Origin: a virus
DNA length: 64,000 nucleotides
Direction: 5' to 3' (one strand)
Virus record (IMG/VR): IMGVR_UViG_3300001589_000003
Location: 1-64,000 of that record
Every line of letters starts with the position of its first letter. Within the stretch, counting starts at the first letter, position 1. Position numbers and translations under genes: made by a program. The notes below the pieces were generated by a model. That model was not told where the DNA came from and did not search any database. It saw only the letters and a list, made by a program, of their open reading frames with translations. This document shows, piece after piece, positions 3,020 through 60,481 of this stretch.

Positions 3020-4710
3020 TATACTGATTGACTTGAAGTTGGTTGACTTAGTACTGTAATGAATAGATCAGCTACGTCTATGGTAAATAATGAAAAATCA
3101 GTTAAGATCAATGCTCCTAGGTAGGGCTGAGTTGTAAACTCCCAAGCATCACCATCTGCATATCCTCCAGCTTGTACAGTAAACTCAACTATACCATCTA
3201 TAGCTACATAGGTGGCTCCCACATCTACCTCACCTTTAAATGCTCCCTCTCTGAATACTCTAACCTTATCAGTAGCCAATATGTATTCTAGTTTCCAGCT
3301 TGTTTTATTTACAGAGGTGGCAAATGTTTCATTAGTCCATGTTAAAACGTTAGTTCCCTGAGTGGGTCTAGCATAAGGTTTTGTATATAAAGATGTTAAT
3401 GTTACAAAGTCCACATTAGTTTGGTTGTCAATTAAAGCTTGTAAATCCGATAGTCTTATACTACCATTGATTTTTTGATTGTCTATATTACCGAATTCTA
3501 CCAAAGCTGTTTCAACTTGTGTCTTAGTCTCAGTGATTGCCTTTCTTGCAAGAGCTGTTACAGTAGCCCCTATCACCACTTTGGTTTCACCCGATGCTAA
3601 TACAGTTGGAAAGGTTGTAACCATCTTTTTTAACTCAGCTTCAGCCTGGGCTATTGCTATTAAAGACCCTGAAGCTAACCCTCCTCCTGTTGGTGCTATA
3701 TATATGGGTATATCTTTACCACAATCAAAATTTACTTCGGACCTTTGAACACCTACTAAATCCTCCATTACCTGTATATGATCATCATAGGTTACCATCC
3801 TTGATAAGGTCTTTATACTTAAAGGCCCATTCTTTCTAATGCTTTCCGTGCTTTGATATAGAGCACCTGATGATGAGTTCTCTTGTGAATTAATTAGGCT
3901 TACTTCCAATGCTCCAGGTAGTACTGCATCAAGGCTTAAAGTATCTTCATCAAATAGCCCCGCTCCTACCTTACCACCAGGCCCGTCCGTCTCTTGATAT
4001 ATTACTGATAAGGTTAATGCTGCTGATGGTAATTCTCCATTTATACCATCCCCTAATATGATGTACATGTTGGAATCTATGTCTAGGTCAACTATAAATA
4101 CCTTATCATTAGCTCCGTAATTTGAGAATGATTTAACTTCTGTGTAAGGGTCAACATCTACAGTTAGTTGTATTGAGTCTTCAGTATATTTGGCACCTAA
4201 ACTAAACCTCTGGTTTAAAGTACCATCTGTTGTACCTAATGCTACATTGGTTACCTCCACTACTTGTTCCATCGGTATAACAGAGATTGTATCATTAATG
4301 GGTATAACAATATCAGAGGTAGTTAAAAATCTTATACCATCCTCGCTATCAATGAATGATCCGGCATTTATAGTAAATGCAGATGGTACAGGTATGGACC
4401 AGGTTAAAGATAAATCAACCTTTTCAGATGATCTAGCTTTTATTCTATAATCTAATATATTAGTGTGTTTAACTACGGATGTTCTTCTAGTAGCCGTACC
4501 CATGAAAGATTCCTCAGCTGCGTTGTCTATGTACAGACCTAGCATCTCAGCTATACCAGCAAACATACTTATAATAATCACAAACGGGTTTGACTCCGAG
4601 TGATCAGTCATCTCTGGGTTAGAGTTAGTTACTCTGGATAGTAGAGAAGCCTTGATAGTTTCAAATGACCTATCAAGAAAACCAATCCACGCATTTTTTA
4701 CGTCAGCCAT
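3019..4710 (-). CDS. Baseplate wedge protein, gpJ / Mu gp47-like
   Basis: A 563-residue protein with the Baseplate_J pattern: an N-terminal helix-rich part with EMLGLYIDNAAEESFM, a central beta-rich domain, and the conserved segment around residues 285-310 (SIRKNGPLSIKTLSRMVTYD) followed by VQRSEVNFDCG. Such proteins form the wedges around the central spike. It overlaps the gp25-like gene upstream by one base. A beta-sandwich-like stretch after about residue 440 appears to be an added domain before the C-terminal tail segment. Confidence 0.8.
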   Translation of the reverse strand: MADVKNAWIGFLDRSFETIKASLLSRVTNSNPEMTDHSESNPFVIIISMFAGIAEMLGLYIDNAAEESFMGTATRRTSVVKHTNILDYRIKARSSEKVDLSLTWSIPVPSAFTINAGSFIDSEDGIRFLTTSDIVIPINDTISVIPMEQVVEVTNVALGTTDGTLNQRFSLGAKYTEDSIQLTVDVDPYTEVKSFSNYGANDKVFIVDLDIDSNMYIILGDGINGELPSAALTLSVIYQETDGPGGKVGAGLFDEDTLSLDAVLPGALEVSLINSQENSSSGALYQSTESIRKNGPLSIKTLSRMVTYDDHIQVMEDLVGVQRSEVNFDCGKDIPIYIAPTGGGLASGSLIAIAQAEAELKKMVTTFPTVLASGETKVVIGATVTALARKAITETKTQVETALVEFGNIDNQKINGSIRLSDLQALIDNQTNVDFVTLTSLYTKPYARPTQGTNVLTWTNETFATSVNKTSWKLEYILATDKVRVFREGAFKGEVDVGATYVAIDGIVEFTVQAGGYADGDAWEFTTQPYLGALILTDFSLFTIDVADLFITVLSQPTSSQSV

Positions 4711-56917: not shown

Positions 56918-57804
56918 TTTAAAGTTTTAAATGGTCTAATAAATGAATTGCCCATTAGTTTTGTCATATTATACTTTCTGGCAAGTCTGTTGAATTTTTC
57001 AACATTAAGTTTCGGGTTTTTACCCCCTATGTATTCAGTTTTGAGTTGATCTTTAAATTTGGAGTAGAAGTATCTCAAGTCAATCAACACTCGGCATATA
57101 TCTATCAACTCTAGTAACTTATCTCTCTTTATTATAGTATGATCATCATTTGATTTCAAGAAGTTCGCTAAACTCCCATATTTCTCAAGTAATTGTGCTG
57201 CCTTAGTAGGACCTATACCTGGGTAACCTGGTATGTTATCAGAGTTGTCTCCTATGAGGGTTAACCAATCAACTGTGTTATGAGCATGGTAACCTTTCTC
57301 TTCAAAACAATTTTCTTCGGTTATGATGGTTTTCTTTTTCCTCTTGTCATTGAAGATACTAACGTTAGCATCTATGAGTTGGTCAAAGTCTTTATCATTA
57401 CTGATTATGATGACATTGGTAAAACCGTTCTTACCTGCTAGTTTGGTTAACTTGTAAATCATATCATCAGCTTCACCTTTGCTGTTGAATATCTGCTTTA
57501 CCCCTAGATGCTTAAACATCTTCTGTACAATGCTCTTTTGTTTTAAGAAGTTCTTGTAGTCAGTTAAAGATTTATGGGCTCTCTCCTTATAATTGGGTAA
57601 TACCTTTACCCTCTCCTTAGAGTGTCCCCCATCCCATACCAGTATCATCTCGTCTGGGTTGAATCTACTGATGTAACTTCTGACCATGGTTACTAACCCA
57701 TATATTATTGACACTACAAAATTCTTATAGGATAGCCTCGAGTAAGCATGATAAGCTTTCCAAGCTGAATTGTTACTGTCTACTATTACTAATGTCTTAC
57801 CCAT
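56914..57804 (-). CDS. 5'-3' exonuclease / RNase H (FEN family)
   Basis: A 296-residue protein with VDSNNSAWKAYHA (first Asp), DEMILVWDGGHSKERV, SNDKDFDQLID, and the helix-hairpin-helix region WLTLIGDNSDNIPGYPGIGP. Family members remove RNA primers and 5' flaps in replication. Its N-terminus overlaps the GIY-YIG gene by 16 bases. Confidence 0.9.
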   Translation of the reverse strand: MGKTLVIVDSNNSAWKAYHAYSRLSYKNFVVSIIYGLVTMVRSYISRFNPDEMILVWDGGHSKERVKVLPNYKERAHKSLTDYKNFLKQKSIVQKMFKHLGVKQIFNSKGEADDMIYKLTKLAGKNGFTNVIIISNDKDFDQLIDANVSIFNDKRKKKTIITEENCFEEKGYHAHNTVDWLTLIGDNSDNIPGYPGIGPTKAAQLLEKYGSLANFLKSNDDHTIIKRDKLLELIDICRVLIDLRYFYSKFKDQLKTEYIGGKNPKLNVEKFNRLARKYNMTKLMGNSFIRPFKTLK

Positions 57805-58361
57805 CTATAACCTCCTGTCTTTTTTCTACGTCCTGCTATACAACTACCTATATTTTGTCTTGAACAATTGTTATCTTCAGCTCCTTCTCTTGCTGTTGGG
57901 TAGTATTTTCTATTACCTTCCCCATCTACCCTGTAAAGTCCTTTAGCATTGGGTGAGTTCTCCCCTCTCAACAATTTGTGAGCTTCTGATAACTTCTTCC
58001 TGTGTGATAAAGAGAAATTAGCACCCTTCATGGTCAATGACATGTTCTTTGACCTGTCTCTGTAAGTAGTGTTCACTAAGTCAAACCCAAGTTCTACCAT
58101 CCAATCAATCCAAGTATTTTCAGCTTTAAGCTTTTTGGACTCAGGTACAATATCCAATAGTTCAATCGTTGGCTCCTCACCCAAGGAGTTCAACCATACT
58201 ACTCTCTTATTAGTTTTTCTACCTTTACCACCCTTAAATGACTTAGCTTCTTTCATATGCCTACTTAACCTATGTTTTAAAGATTCCCCAGTTTGCCCAA
58301 CATACCTAGGTAAAAAGGTTATTGGGTCTTTCAATACATATATTCTAACAATATCTTCCAT
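57789..58361 (-). CDS. Free-standing GIY-YIG homing endonuclease
   Basis: A 190-residue protein with a GIY-YIG domain (IYVLKDPITFLPRYVGQT, HRLSRHMKEA) and a NUMOD3-like segment (GANFSLSHRKKLSEAHK), then a small C-terminal HTH-like part (TAREGAEDNNCSRQNIGSCI). It lies between the FEN and RecA-like genes. An inverted repeat abuts its start codon. Confidence 0.88.
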   Translation of the reverse strand: MEDIVRIYVLKDPITFLPRYVGQTGESLKHRLSRHMKEAKSFKGGKGRKTNKRVVWLNSLGEEPTIELLDIVPESKKLKAENTWIDWMVELGFDLVNTTYRDRSKNMSLTMKGANFSLSHRKKLSEAHKLLRGENSPNAKGLYRVDGEGNRKYYPTAREGAEDNNCSRQNIGSCIAGRRKKTGGYRWVRH

Positions 58362-58408: not shown

Positions 58409-58561
58409 TTATTTTTCATGAGTACTGGTTATTATTACTTTACCCAAACCTTTTATTGTGGGCATGGTTGATTTCCAAATATTTCTTACCCGCTTTATTT
58501 CTCCTACACTAGGTTCTTCGTGATCCCCATTGATATTTACCGTACCTTTATAGCTATTCAT
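58409..58561 (-). CDS. Small basic hypothetical protein (50 aa)
   Basis: The frame MNSYKGTVNINGDHEEPS starts inside the last codons of the RecA-like gene (overlap of 8 bases) and ends at TAA. Contains KRVRNIWKSTMPTIKGLGK. Unknown; the overlap supports translation. Confidence 0.5.
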   Translation of the reverse strand: MNSYKGTVNINGDHEEPSVGEIKRVRNIWKSTMPTIKGLGKVIITSTHEK

Positions 58562-59681
58562 CATCTGATTGAGTTTTACCTACATTCACTGGATATAAAT
58601 TTCTAGTCAGTGCGTCTATCTTTTCCTGAGTTTTAGAGATGGTATTAATACCAGACTTTTTAATCAAAGCTTTTCTCATCTTCTTGTTCTCTATTAGCTT
58701 TCTTAAAAAATCATCCTCTCCATTAGCTATACTTTTACCCTTGTATTTGTAGTGTGACCCACCTTTAGTAACAACCCCTAGTTCCTGTAGTATCTCTGGT
58801 AACCCATGATACCTGGAGAATCCTACGTAGCCATATATATCATCTCTAAAGTATACCTGAGTTTTGATGTTCTCCTTTGGAGGAGCAACCTTGTTCTTAG
58901 GTATAGTTAAGTAGATGTTCTGGCCCATCTTCTTTCCCTTCTTATCATCTTTGAACTTACCATCTACCATTTTACCTTTGATTTGCTTTGATCTAATAAG
59001 ACCAACCCTCTGTGATGCATAAAATCTAGTAGCCTTACCACCTGGTGTGATATCAGATGCTTCATATATTGAGGCACCTACCTTATCTCTTACCTGATTC
59101 ACCATTATTACTACCACCCCATACTCTTTATAAAAGAAGGACCTCTCTCTATACATACGGTAGATAGCTTTAGCCCTGTTGCCCATTTGAGATTTACTAC
59201 CCATGGCATCCGCACCTATATTCTCTTCACAATCAAGTGCTGCAATAGAATCACAGACTACTACTATAGGTTCATTGTTAGTGAGCTTTGATCTCCAGTA
59301 TATTATTTGATCCCTGTGCCAATCGGAATACTCTTCTACTGTATTGGAGGTTAGTACTTCAGCTAAAGATGGGTCAACCCCATTCTGTCTTATCCAATGG
59401 GGTGTCCACGCAAATTCTGCATCACCCCATAACACTCTACCTCCTAATGCTTGAGCTGCATAACAAAAGTCTAAGGCTAATAAAGATTTACCTGTCGACT
59501 CGAATCCAAATAACTCCATCATCTTACCGTAGGGTATACCTCCTCCTAACTGCCAGTTTAAGGCTAAGCTCCTAGATGGAAGCCATAAATCCTCTTCATC
59601 AGGTAGGGTAATCTCACCTGATGAAGAGTTTACGTATTTTTTATCCAGAGCAGAAGGTGATAGTAATTTTAGTTTTGCCAT
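58554..59681 (-). CDS. uvsX: RecA/UvsX-like recombinase
   Basis: A 375-residue protein with Walker A GFESTGKS (59-66), Walker B IVVVCDSIAALD (139-150), the RecA-type segment VNQVRDKVGASIY (194-206) and GGKATRFYASQRVGL (214-228), where L2 and the ATP-cap are found. It carries out strand exchange, together with SSB and a mediator from the two neighbouring genes. Confidence 0.9.
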   Translation of the reverse strand: MAKLKLLSPSALDKKYVNSSSGEITLPDEEDLWLPSRSLALNWQLGGGIPYGKMMELFGFESTGKSLLALDFCYAAQALGGRVLWGDAEFAWTPHWIRQNGVDPSLAEVLTSNTVEEYSDWHRDQIIYWRSKLTNNEPIVVVCDSIAALDCEENIGADAMGSKSQMGNRAKAIYRMYRERSFFYKEYGVVVIMVNQVRDKVGASIYEASDITPGGKATRFYASQRVGLIRSKQIKGKMVDGKFKDDKKGKKMGQNIYLTIPKNKVAPPKENIKTQVYFRDDIYGYVGFSRYHGLPEILQELGVVTKGGSHYKYKGKSIANGEDDFLRKLIENKKMRKALIKKSGINTISKTQEKIDALTRNLYPVNVGKTQSDDE

Positions 59682-59690
59682 GTTTGTTTT

Positions 59691-60481
59691 TTAAAATGGT
59701 AAATCGTCTGAATCATTATCAGGCTTTACTTTTTTTTACCTTTCTTGTCCTTTTTCTTTTCAGGCTTCTCTTCTTTCTCCTTTTTGTTCTTGTCTTTCTT
59801 ACCTTTCTTTTTCTTAGGCTTATCCTCTGGACTGATGTTCAAAAAGTTATTAAGTATAGTCTCTGCCTCTTCCTCTGTCTTAACATCCTTTCTTACCATT
59901 GCCTCAACATCCCAAATTTTATTGTACTCCTTATCTAATTTAGTAGGTTTACATGGAACTACTGAATACTCTGTGTCCATCATTGTTGAACCAGTCCTAG
60001 TTATCTTTAGGTCATACCCATTTTTAGGGTGAGTGAAGTCTCCCTGTTCCTCATCCAAGAAATAATCAATTAAGTTCTGAGCTGTACCTGATGTTAGAAG
60101 TAATAGCTTACCAGATTTTTGTTTGTTGATCTTCTTACCTTTTAGATCATCGAATAACACTACTGGAATAACATACTTCTTCTTCGGCTTTAATTTCTTA
60201 GCAAGGTCTTGGTCATCATCATCACCCTTCTTTAGTTTCTCGTACATATCTATAATGGGGCATGGTTCTCCAAAAGTTGCTGCCGATATAACTCCCTTAA
60301 CATCACCTCCAAAATAGAACTGAGTTACCTCCAACCCAAATTCTTCTGACTCATCTACAGGTAGAGGTCTAACTCTAATTGTTTCGTCTGCCTTAATAAA
60401 GATCATGTTACCTCCCTCTGATCTGTCTTTCATCGCCTTCTTACGGGCTTTCATTTTTTCTTTTCTGTTCAAATCTGACAT
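59691..60481 (-). CDS. Single-stranded DNA-binding protein, gp32-like, with a frameshifted acidic tip
   Basis: The zero frame (60481-59726) encodes 251 residues: a basic N-terminus, a gp32-like core (FYFGGDVKGVISAATFGEPC, KKYVIPVVLFDDLKGKK) and a Lys/Asp/Glu tail ending KKGKKK at TAA. At the end lies A_AAA_AAG; a -1 slip reads 12 more codons, VKPDNDSDDLPF, to TAA at 59691. DDLPF is the classic SSB tip that recruits replication proteins (E. coli ends DDDIPF). So the tip appears to be made by frameshift, unless the A8 run is miscounted. Confidence 0.82.
59729..59735 (-). other. Putative -1 frameshift heptamer A_AAA_AAG in the SSB gene
   Basis: Minus-strand codons GGT AAA AAA AAG TAA contain A_AAA_AAG, the same heptamer as in E. 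coli dnaX, directly before the zero-frame stop. The eight A are 59737-59730. The -1 frame encodes a typical SSB tip. Confidence 0.65.

Follow-up and report, generated by a model that had tools for sequence, protein, structure and literature searches.

An acidic tip encoded out of frame behind an A-run suggests that a phage gp32-like SSB gene is recoded

Does a single phage gene for a single-strand DNA-binding protein (SSB) give rise to two proteins, one with and one without a bacterial-type acidic tip at its C-terminus? The question is raised by a locus in the window, the 64,000-nucleotide stretch of DNA analyzed here, which is part of a 76,278-base IMG/VR virus record. On the minus strand of the window, a replication block runs in the order DNA polymerase A, thymidylate-kinase-like protein, small protein, SSB, and RecA/UvsX, with the recombinase gene (58554..59681, minus strand; Pfam RecA, 1.7e-32; phrog_97 UvsX-like, 4.6e-60) lying directly downstream of the SSB gene. 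The SSB gene (59726..60481, minus strand) encodes a zero-frame product of 251 amino acids, and its 3' end reads GGT AAA AAA AAG TAA. The A-run in this stretch is exactly eight residues long (59737-59730) and is followed by G at 59729, so that the A8G site (59729..59737, minus strand) includes the dnaX-type heptamer A_AAA_AAG (59735-59729) in zero-frame register. The initial annotation had pointed to this run and heptamer, to a basic zero-frame end, KKGKKK, and to a -1 continuation closing on DDLPF; all three readings hold, the full zero-frame end being DKKGKKK-stop. Following a -1 slip, the codons GTA AAG CCT GAT AAT GAT TCA GAC GAT TTA CCA TTT TAA encode VKPDNDSDDLPF-stop (59691..59729, minus strand).

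Access to this extension appears to be restricted. A TAA stop in the -1 frame (GG-TAA-AAA) takes in the first two A's of the run, and ATG, GTG, and TTG are absent from the short -1 segment, which leaves a slip inside the A-run as the only ordinary entry to the frame; an independent start for the segment was ruled out for lack of a start codon. The DNA pattern for DDxPF-stop occurs once in the 64 kb, against 0.00 matches expected from shuffled sequence. The segment also meets the criterion for an SSB acidic tip, in that DSDDLPF-stop forms the very last residues and follows a lysine-rich tail (residues 217-251; 59729..59833, minus strand) that is predicted to be disordered, with pLDDT values below 50 over residues 217-245. 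The bacterial SSB C-terminus (MDFDDDIPF in Escherichia coli) is built in the same way, with acidic residues and (L/I)PF at the extreme end of a disordered tail. Bacterial SSBs, however, encode their tip in frame, whereas in the window it lies out of frame on a gp32-like phage SSB.

The assignment as a gp32-like protein rests on an SSB match (phrog_1192 single strand DNA binding protein, E=4e-21) and on a structural model. The AlphaFold2 model, built from 33 aligned sequences (pLDDT 83.5), matched the RB69/T4 gp32 core (2a1k, 1gpc, and 8gme) with E values of 2e-9 to 6e-8 and a TM score of about 0.5. This relation to PDB entries came from structure comparison and not from a profile sequence search; the window SSB itself gave no Pfam match at 1e-3, while its relative L038/L041 matched Pfam gp32 (PF08804) at 43.2 bits (cut-off 26.8). 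According to the model, the window SSB has the T4/RB69 gp32 fold, which supports the identity proposed in the initial annotation; cooperative ssDNA binding is inferred. The window SSB thus resembles T4/RB69 gp32 in its core fold, its ssDNA-binding role, and its replication neighborhood, but differs in that its zero-frame tail is lysine-rich and that a bacterial-type tip is reached only after the slip. T4 gp32 has an acidic C-domain of its own. Such a tail could plausibly bear a tip of the bacterial type, since four distinct relatives of the window SSB encode one in the ordinary manner, in the zero frame (L010 and L013, DDLPF; L019, GDLPF; L037, DDDDIPF).

These relatives belong to a family of about 70 distinct members (family 1), 69 of which were placed in a tree. 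A single-sequence search of IMG/VR with the SSB found nothing, and alignments were required to reach the relatives. In INPHARED, only four distant relatives were found, two of them fragments, with no tip where the end was present; the genome contigs yielded two relatives, both tipless. Three of the roughly 70 members, namely the window gene, L009, and L038, carry the tip out of frame, in each case behind A8G and in the -1 frame, with no case in the +1 frame. L009 and L038 stem from other samples, and their SSBs are about 57% identical to that of the window and about 90% identical to each other. Both read GTT AAA AAA AAG at the same place as the window's A8G, and both end in KKKKRLG-stop in the zero frame. 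Their -1 extensions differ, measuring about 22 and 60 residues, of which the longer includes a CPVSGKDCKDKKCLAINLC segment, and both close on DDLPF-stop. At 44% of the conserved degenerate codons the two genes show synonymous differences; their slip sites nevertheless match exactly, and RLG-stop in the zero frame is altered only by synonymous changes (AGA/AGG, CTA/TTA, GGT/GGA, and TAG/TAA; 4/4, counting the stop). Judging from these codons, both frames look selected, and both the short and the tipped product look maintained.

In the tree, the genes that are tipped by a slip fall within a supported group of seven (99/96) whose other members lack a tip, so that two changes are required, namely two gains or a gain plus a loss. 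Of the 69 relatives in the tree, 62 are tipless in every frame, and so is L008, which lies inside the window's clade; the tip therefore seems dispensable over evolution. As L009 and L038 are closely related, family 1 provides about two independent lineages. The initial annotation held that its reading would be refuted by relatives in which a run of different length restores a single frame, or which keep the heptamer and lose the downstream frame. When the junction was compared, no A-run was found repaired to a single tipped frame, and no relative in the window's clade keeps A8G while losing the -1 tip; in the remaining relatives, the tip is wholly absent or, in a few, in the zero frame. Across family-1 tails, A-runs of at least eight residues go with a tip in either frame (5/6, against 2/64; Fisher 1e-5, or 8e-5 with L009 and L038 counted once), an association that is post hoc and ignores kinship. 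In L013 (A8 at 3402) and L019 (A9 at 2117), the run comes shortly before a zero-frame tip; slipping by -1 there would bring a stop within a few codons and so cost the protein its tip, which is the true dnaX polarity.

Two further observations concern tips in this family. The 3' ends of L036 and L037 encode near-identical SSBs that end in KSDID and DDDDIPF, respectively, a pair revealing that even very close phages can differ by the gain or loss of a tip. In L071, an apparent -1 tip of the SSB was ruled out, as it belongs to a distinct gene of 74 aa that has an ATG of its own (about 2065-2289); this gene ends in SEDDLPF, lies upstream of the kinase gene, and neighbors a tipless SSB, and a relative of the window phage may here encode the tip as a stand-alone protein.

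Out-of-frame tips recur in gp32-like SSB genes beyond this family. IMG/VR was scanned for A7G followed, after 5-35 bases of any sequence, by DDxPF-stop, and the frequencies obtained are lower bounds. The tip was in frame with its ORF at at least 118 loci and out of frame at at least five (at least three of them distinct). Among the matches listed, every out-of-frame locus was a gp32-like SSB gene with the tip in the -1 frame behind A9G, and no out-of-frame tip was seen in any other type of gene. These loci, L119, L123 (identical to L199), and L176, which we refer to as family 2, all lie near RecA-like genes, and their -1 tips read EHYEDDLPF (L119; site at about 1595-1640 of the reverse complement), RSSYANDDIPF (L123), and SKKEQQEEDFLDDIPF (L176). 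The cores of L119 and L123 are 48% identical, and L176 is remote, with a Pfam gp32 score of 35.3 bits (cut-off 26.8); no family-2 relatives were found in INPHARED. In family 2, the zero frame does not stop at the run and continues to a C-terminal CPxxxxFGxD...CxxC motif common to their relatives. The -1 tip is consequently nested within a continuing zero frame, and both frames past the run carry recognizable information, which sequencing error cannot easily explain. At all six sites of the two families, A_AAA_AAG or A_AAA_AAA stands in register, and at four of the six the -1 frame is closed by a stop just where the run begins. Together, the retention of A8G with a -1 DDLPF end in L009 and L038 and the nested -1 DD[LI]PF ends behind A9G bear out the initial annotation's view that the -1 frame is meaningful.

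Two controls were available for this recurrence. Among 970 ORFs in loci fetched by homology, out-of-frame DD[LI]PF ends were found only in SSB genes, two family-2 cases in this set having been known beforehand; the EEVPF/EEVPW matches in the same set were short or shadow frames and were taken as chance. In 398 genomes belonging to the same phylum as G001 (a Bacillota MAG, the source of L106), the A7G-tip pattern had no match in any frame, a control that bounds chance and is uninformative on cellular SSBs. As a separate observation, the gene upstream of the SSB in L176 (1399-2361 of the reverse complement) ends in CPAGYSFGK...CDDC, like the C-terminus of the SSB itself, and the two genes thus share a C-terminal module.

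Several explanations other than recoding have to be considered. The initial annotation took a miscounted homopolymer to be the main alternative, the true run being A9 with a single tipped frame, and in the window, L009, and L038 a single added A would indeed bring the two frames together. We consider this unlikely, since both frames carry conserved information: the same A8 appears in three separate assemblies, the other runs of 7-8 in the window sit within intact ORFs, and the synonymous-only changes in RLG-stop of L009 and L038 speak for a zero frame that is kept. At the family-2 sites, no single count of A's joins the -1 tip and the shared Cys motif in one frame, and the presence of a hidden tip behind an A-run in the SSB genes of distantly related phages makes sequencing error an improbable cause. 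Mere coincidence, in which the -1 frame just happens to end in DDLPF, might be entertained for the window alone, where the tail is low in complexity and lysine-rich and the -1 segment is short. Yet the chance of a frame ending in DD[LIVM]PF is about 2e-7 from base composition, and the ending recurs, without exception in SSB genes, in L009, L038, L119, L123, and L176, which renders this explanation practically untenable.

A slip at the level of DNA would have a different meaning: the run would flip between A8 and A9 in the phage population, each virion encoding either a tipless or a tipped SSB. Mononucleotide runs are a classic contingency structure, and close relatives such as L036 and L037 do gain and lose tips, but every out-of-frame locus was found in the off state, without an in-frame sister bearing one extra A. 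An SSB gene, moreover, is normally essential and not a contingency gene, and we regard such phase variation as improbable. The function of the tip could also be other than docking. The C-terminal LPF of Streptococcus mutans SsbA suffices for ClpXP degradation in some strains (PMC5143411), and the -1 end might accordingly serve, instead of or besides docking, as a tag through which ClpXP turns over the slipped molecules. That recognition is strain-dependent, and the ClpXP of other bacteria ignores LPF (PMC5143411); DDIPF is used at two of the three family-2 sites, and the acidic tip is far more general as a docking site (PMC7913777). A degradation tag is hence given little weight.

How the slip may occur is less certain. 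A_AAA_AAG is the shift site of E. coli dnaX (PMC5009743) and ranks among the most shift-prone heptamers in E. coli (PMC4066793, PMC5009743). Transcriptional slippage as in Thermus dnaX, in which the polymerase adds an A on A8 or A9 and mixed mRNAs result, is a sub-case of recoding and not an alternative to it; the initial annotation had raised it as well. PMC5009743 reports that bacterial RNA polymerase slips efficiently in vivo on nine A's, the run length of all family-2 sites, and that A_AAA_AAA, the heptamer of L123 and L176, is much less prone to ribosomal shifting than A_AAA_AAG. On the other hand, the run is no longer than A8 in the window, L009, and L038, where A_AAA_AAG stands in register, and all six sites need a -1 shift, while a slipping polymerase would also yield products in the other frame that end nowhere recognizable. 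The A9 of family 2 leans toward polymerase slippage; the A8 of the window fits either route, and sequence cannot decide between them. For the phenomenon as a whole, we put slippage by the polymerase at a little short of even odds. The outcome is alike under both mechanisms, namely a mixed population of tipless and tipped SSB.

Neither accessory element of the dnaX site could be firmly assigned. No conserved or unusually stable RNA structure was found 3' of the slip sites (z -2.0 to +1.5, pseudoknots being outside the analysis), so that a classical dnaX-type downstream stem-loop is not met, and the lack of a conserved structure is in keeping with polymerase slippage. Within the 6-17 nt upstream where an internal SD would be expected, each of the three family-1 sites has an SD-like AGGA/GGAG at a distance of 13-15 nt (59748..59751, minus strand, in the window); none of the three family-2 sites has one, an absence that likewise fits polymerase slippage, and the same motif occurs by chance at 27% of positions in these gene tails. 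The gene starts of the window phage look SD-less, and from these start contexts alone the host is inferred to be a member of Bacteroidota. The ribosomes of Bacteroidia make no use of SD (PMC9976891), and in an SD-less host an SD element of the dnaX kind may fail. No phage tRNA able to affect slipping was found in the window.

Taken together, we propose, with a probability of about 0.83 and in the absence of protein, RNA, or reporter data, that recoding by ribosomal -1 frameshifting or RNA-polymerase slippage lets one gene yield both a tipped and a tipless SSB. What is observed at the level of sequence is the pair of frames, their conservation in relatives, and the recurrence of the arrangement in other gp32-like SSB genes, and the gp32 fold is given by the model; that both proteins are made, their ratio, and the recruitment of host or phage SSB-interacting proteins by the tip are inferred. 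Most expression would stop in the zero frame after the lysine-rich tail and give the tipless SSB, while a fraction would slip by -1 within A8G, through ribosomes on A_AAA_AAG or an RNA polymerase that adds one A, continue for 12 codons, and end in DDLPF. The SSB coating the phage ssDNA would then be mixed, with the recruiting tip present on a set fraction of the molecules. In bacteria, the SSB tip docks many partner proteins (PMC7913777), and by analogy the likely effect of the slip is to set the number of docking sites on the phage ssDNA filament, although binding itself is inferred. We further consider it reasonably probable, with less confidence than the recoding itself, that several lineages have repeatedly recoded a single gp32-like gene into a tunable mix of tipped and tipless protein, with slip efficiency setting the density of host docking and, in family 2, with the choice lying between a docking tip and a Cys-motif, possibly metal-binding, C-terminus.

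The closest precedent is dnaX, the best-known case of recoding in bacterial and phage replication genes. Like the window SSB, it is a replication gene with an A-run slip site (A_AAA_AAG in E. coli, a nine-base run in Thermus) from which two proteins, tau and gamma, share an N-terminus and differ in a C-terminal interaction region, by ribosomal frameshifting in E. coli and transcriptional slippage in Thermus. The two systems differ in polarity, as the dnaX slip truncates the protein to gamma whereas the window slip adds a tip, and also in the protein concerned, in the stem-loop that was not found at the window site, and in the SD-like element, which remains uncertain there. The lambda tail assembly chaperone gpG/gpGT likewise represents conserved recoding in tailed phages with a C-terminally extended minority product, but it serves morphogenesis and not replication, and a whole domain is added instead of a short tip. 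The initial annotation knew of no description for an SSB, and none that links an SSB to frameshifting or slippage was found in the literature covered, which leaves out most subscription journals; the case is absent from the accessible portion of the main recoding review and from the main text of a large bacterial frameshift survey. A recoded C-terminal variant of a replication protein is thus already known from dnaX, while the gene and the tip-adding logic appear new. If true, a slip-switched tip would let a phage set the number of host-recruiting tails on its ssDNA and would bear on the number of tips required by an SSB filament. Such SSBs are truncated by gene callers, and standard annotation does not show the tip.

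Two further observations concern other genes. Close to the recombinase gene of the window, an ORF starting MEDIVRIYVLKDPITFLPRYVGQTG (57789-58361, minus strand) resembles, by eye, a GIY-YIG homing endonuclease. In the gut phages DP SC_2 and SC_6, the DNA polymerase genes (L003, 69-2066, and L002, 175-1623) appear, likewise by eye, to be interrupted by intein or homing-endonuclease segments.
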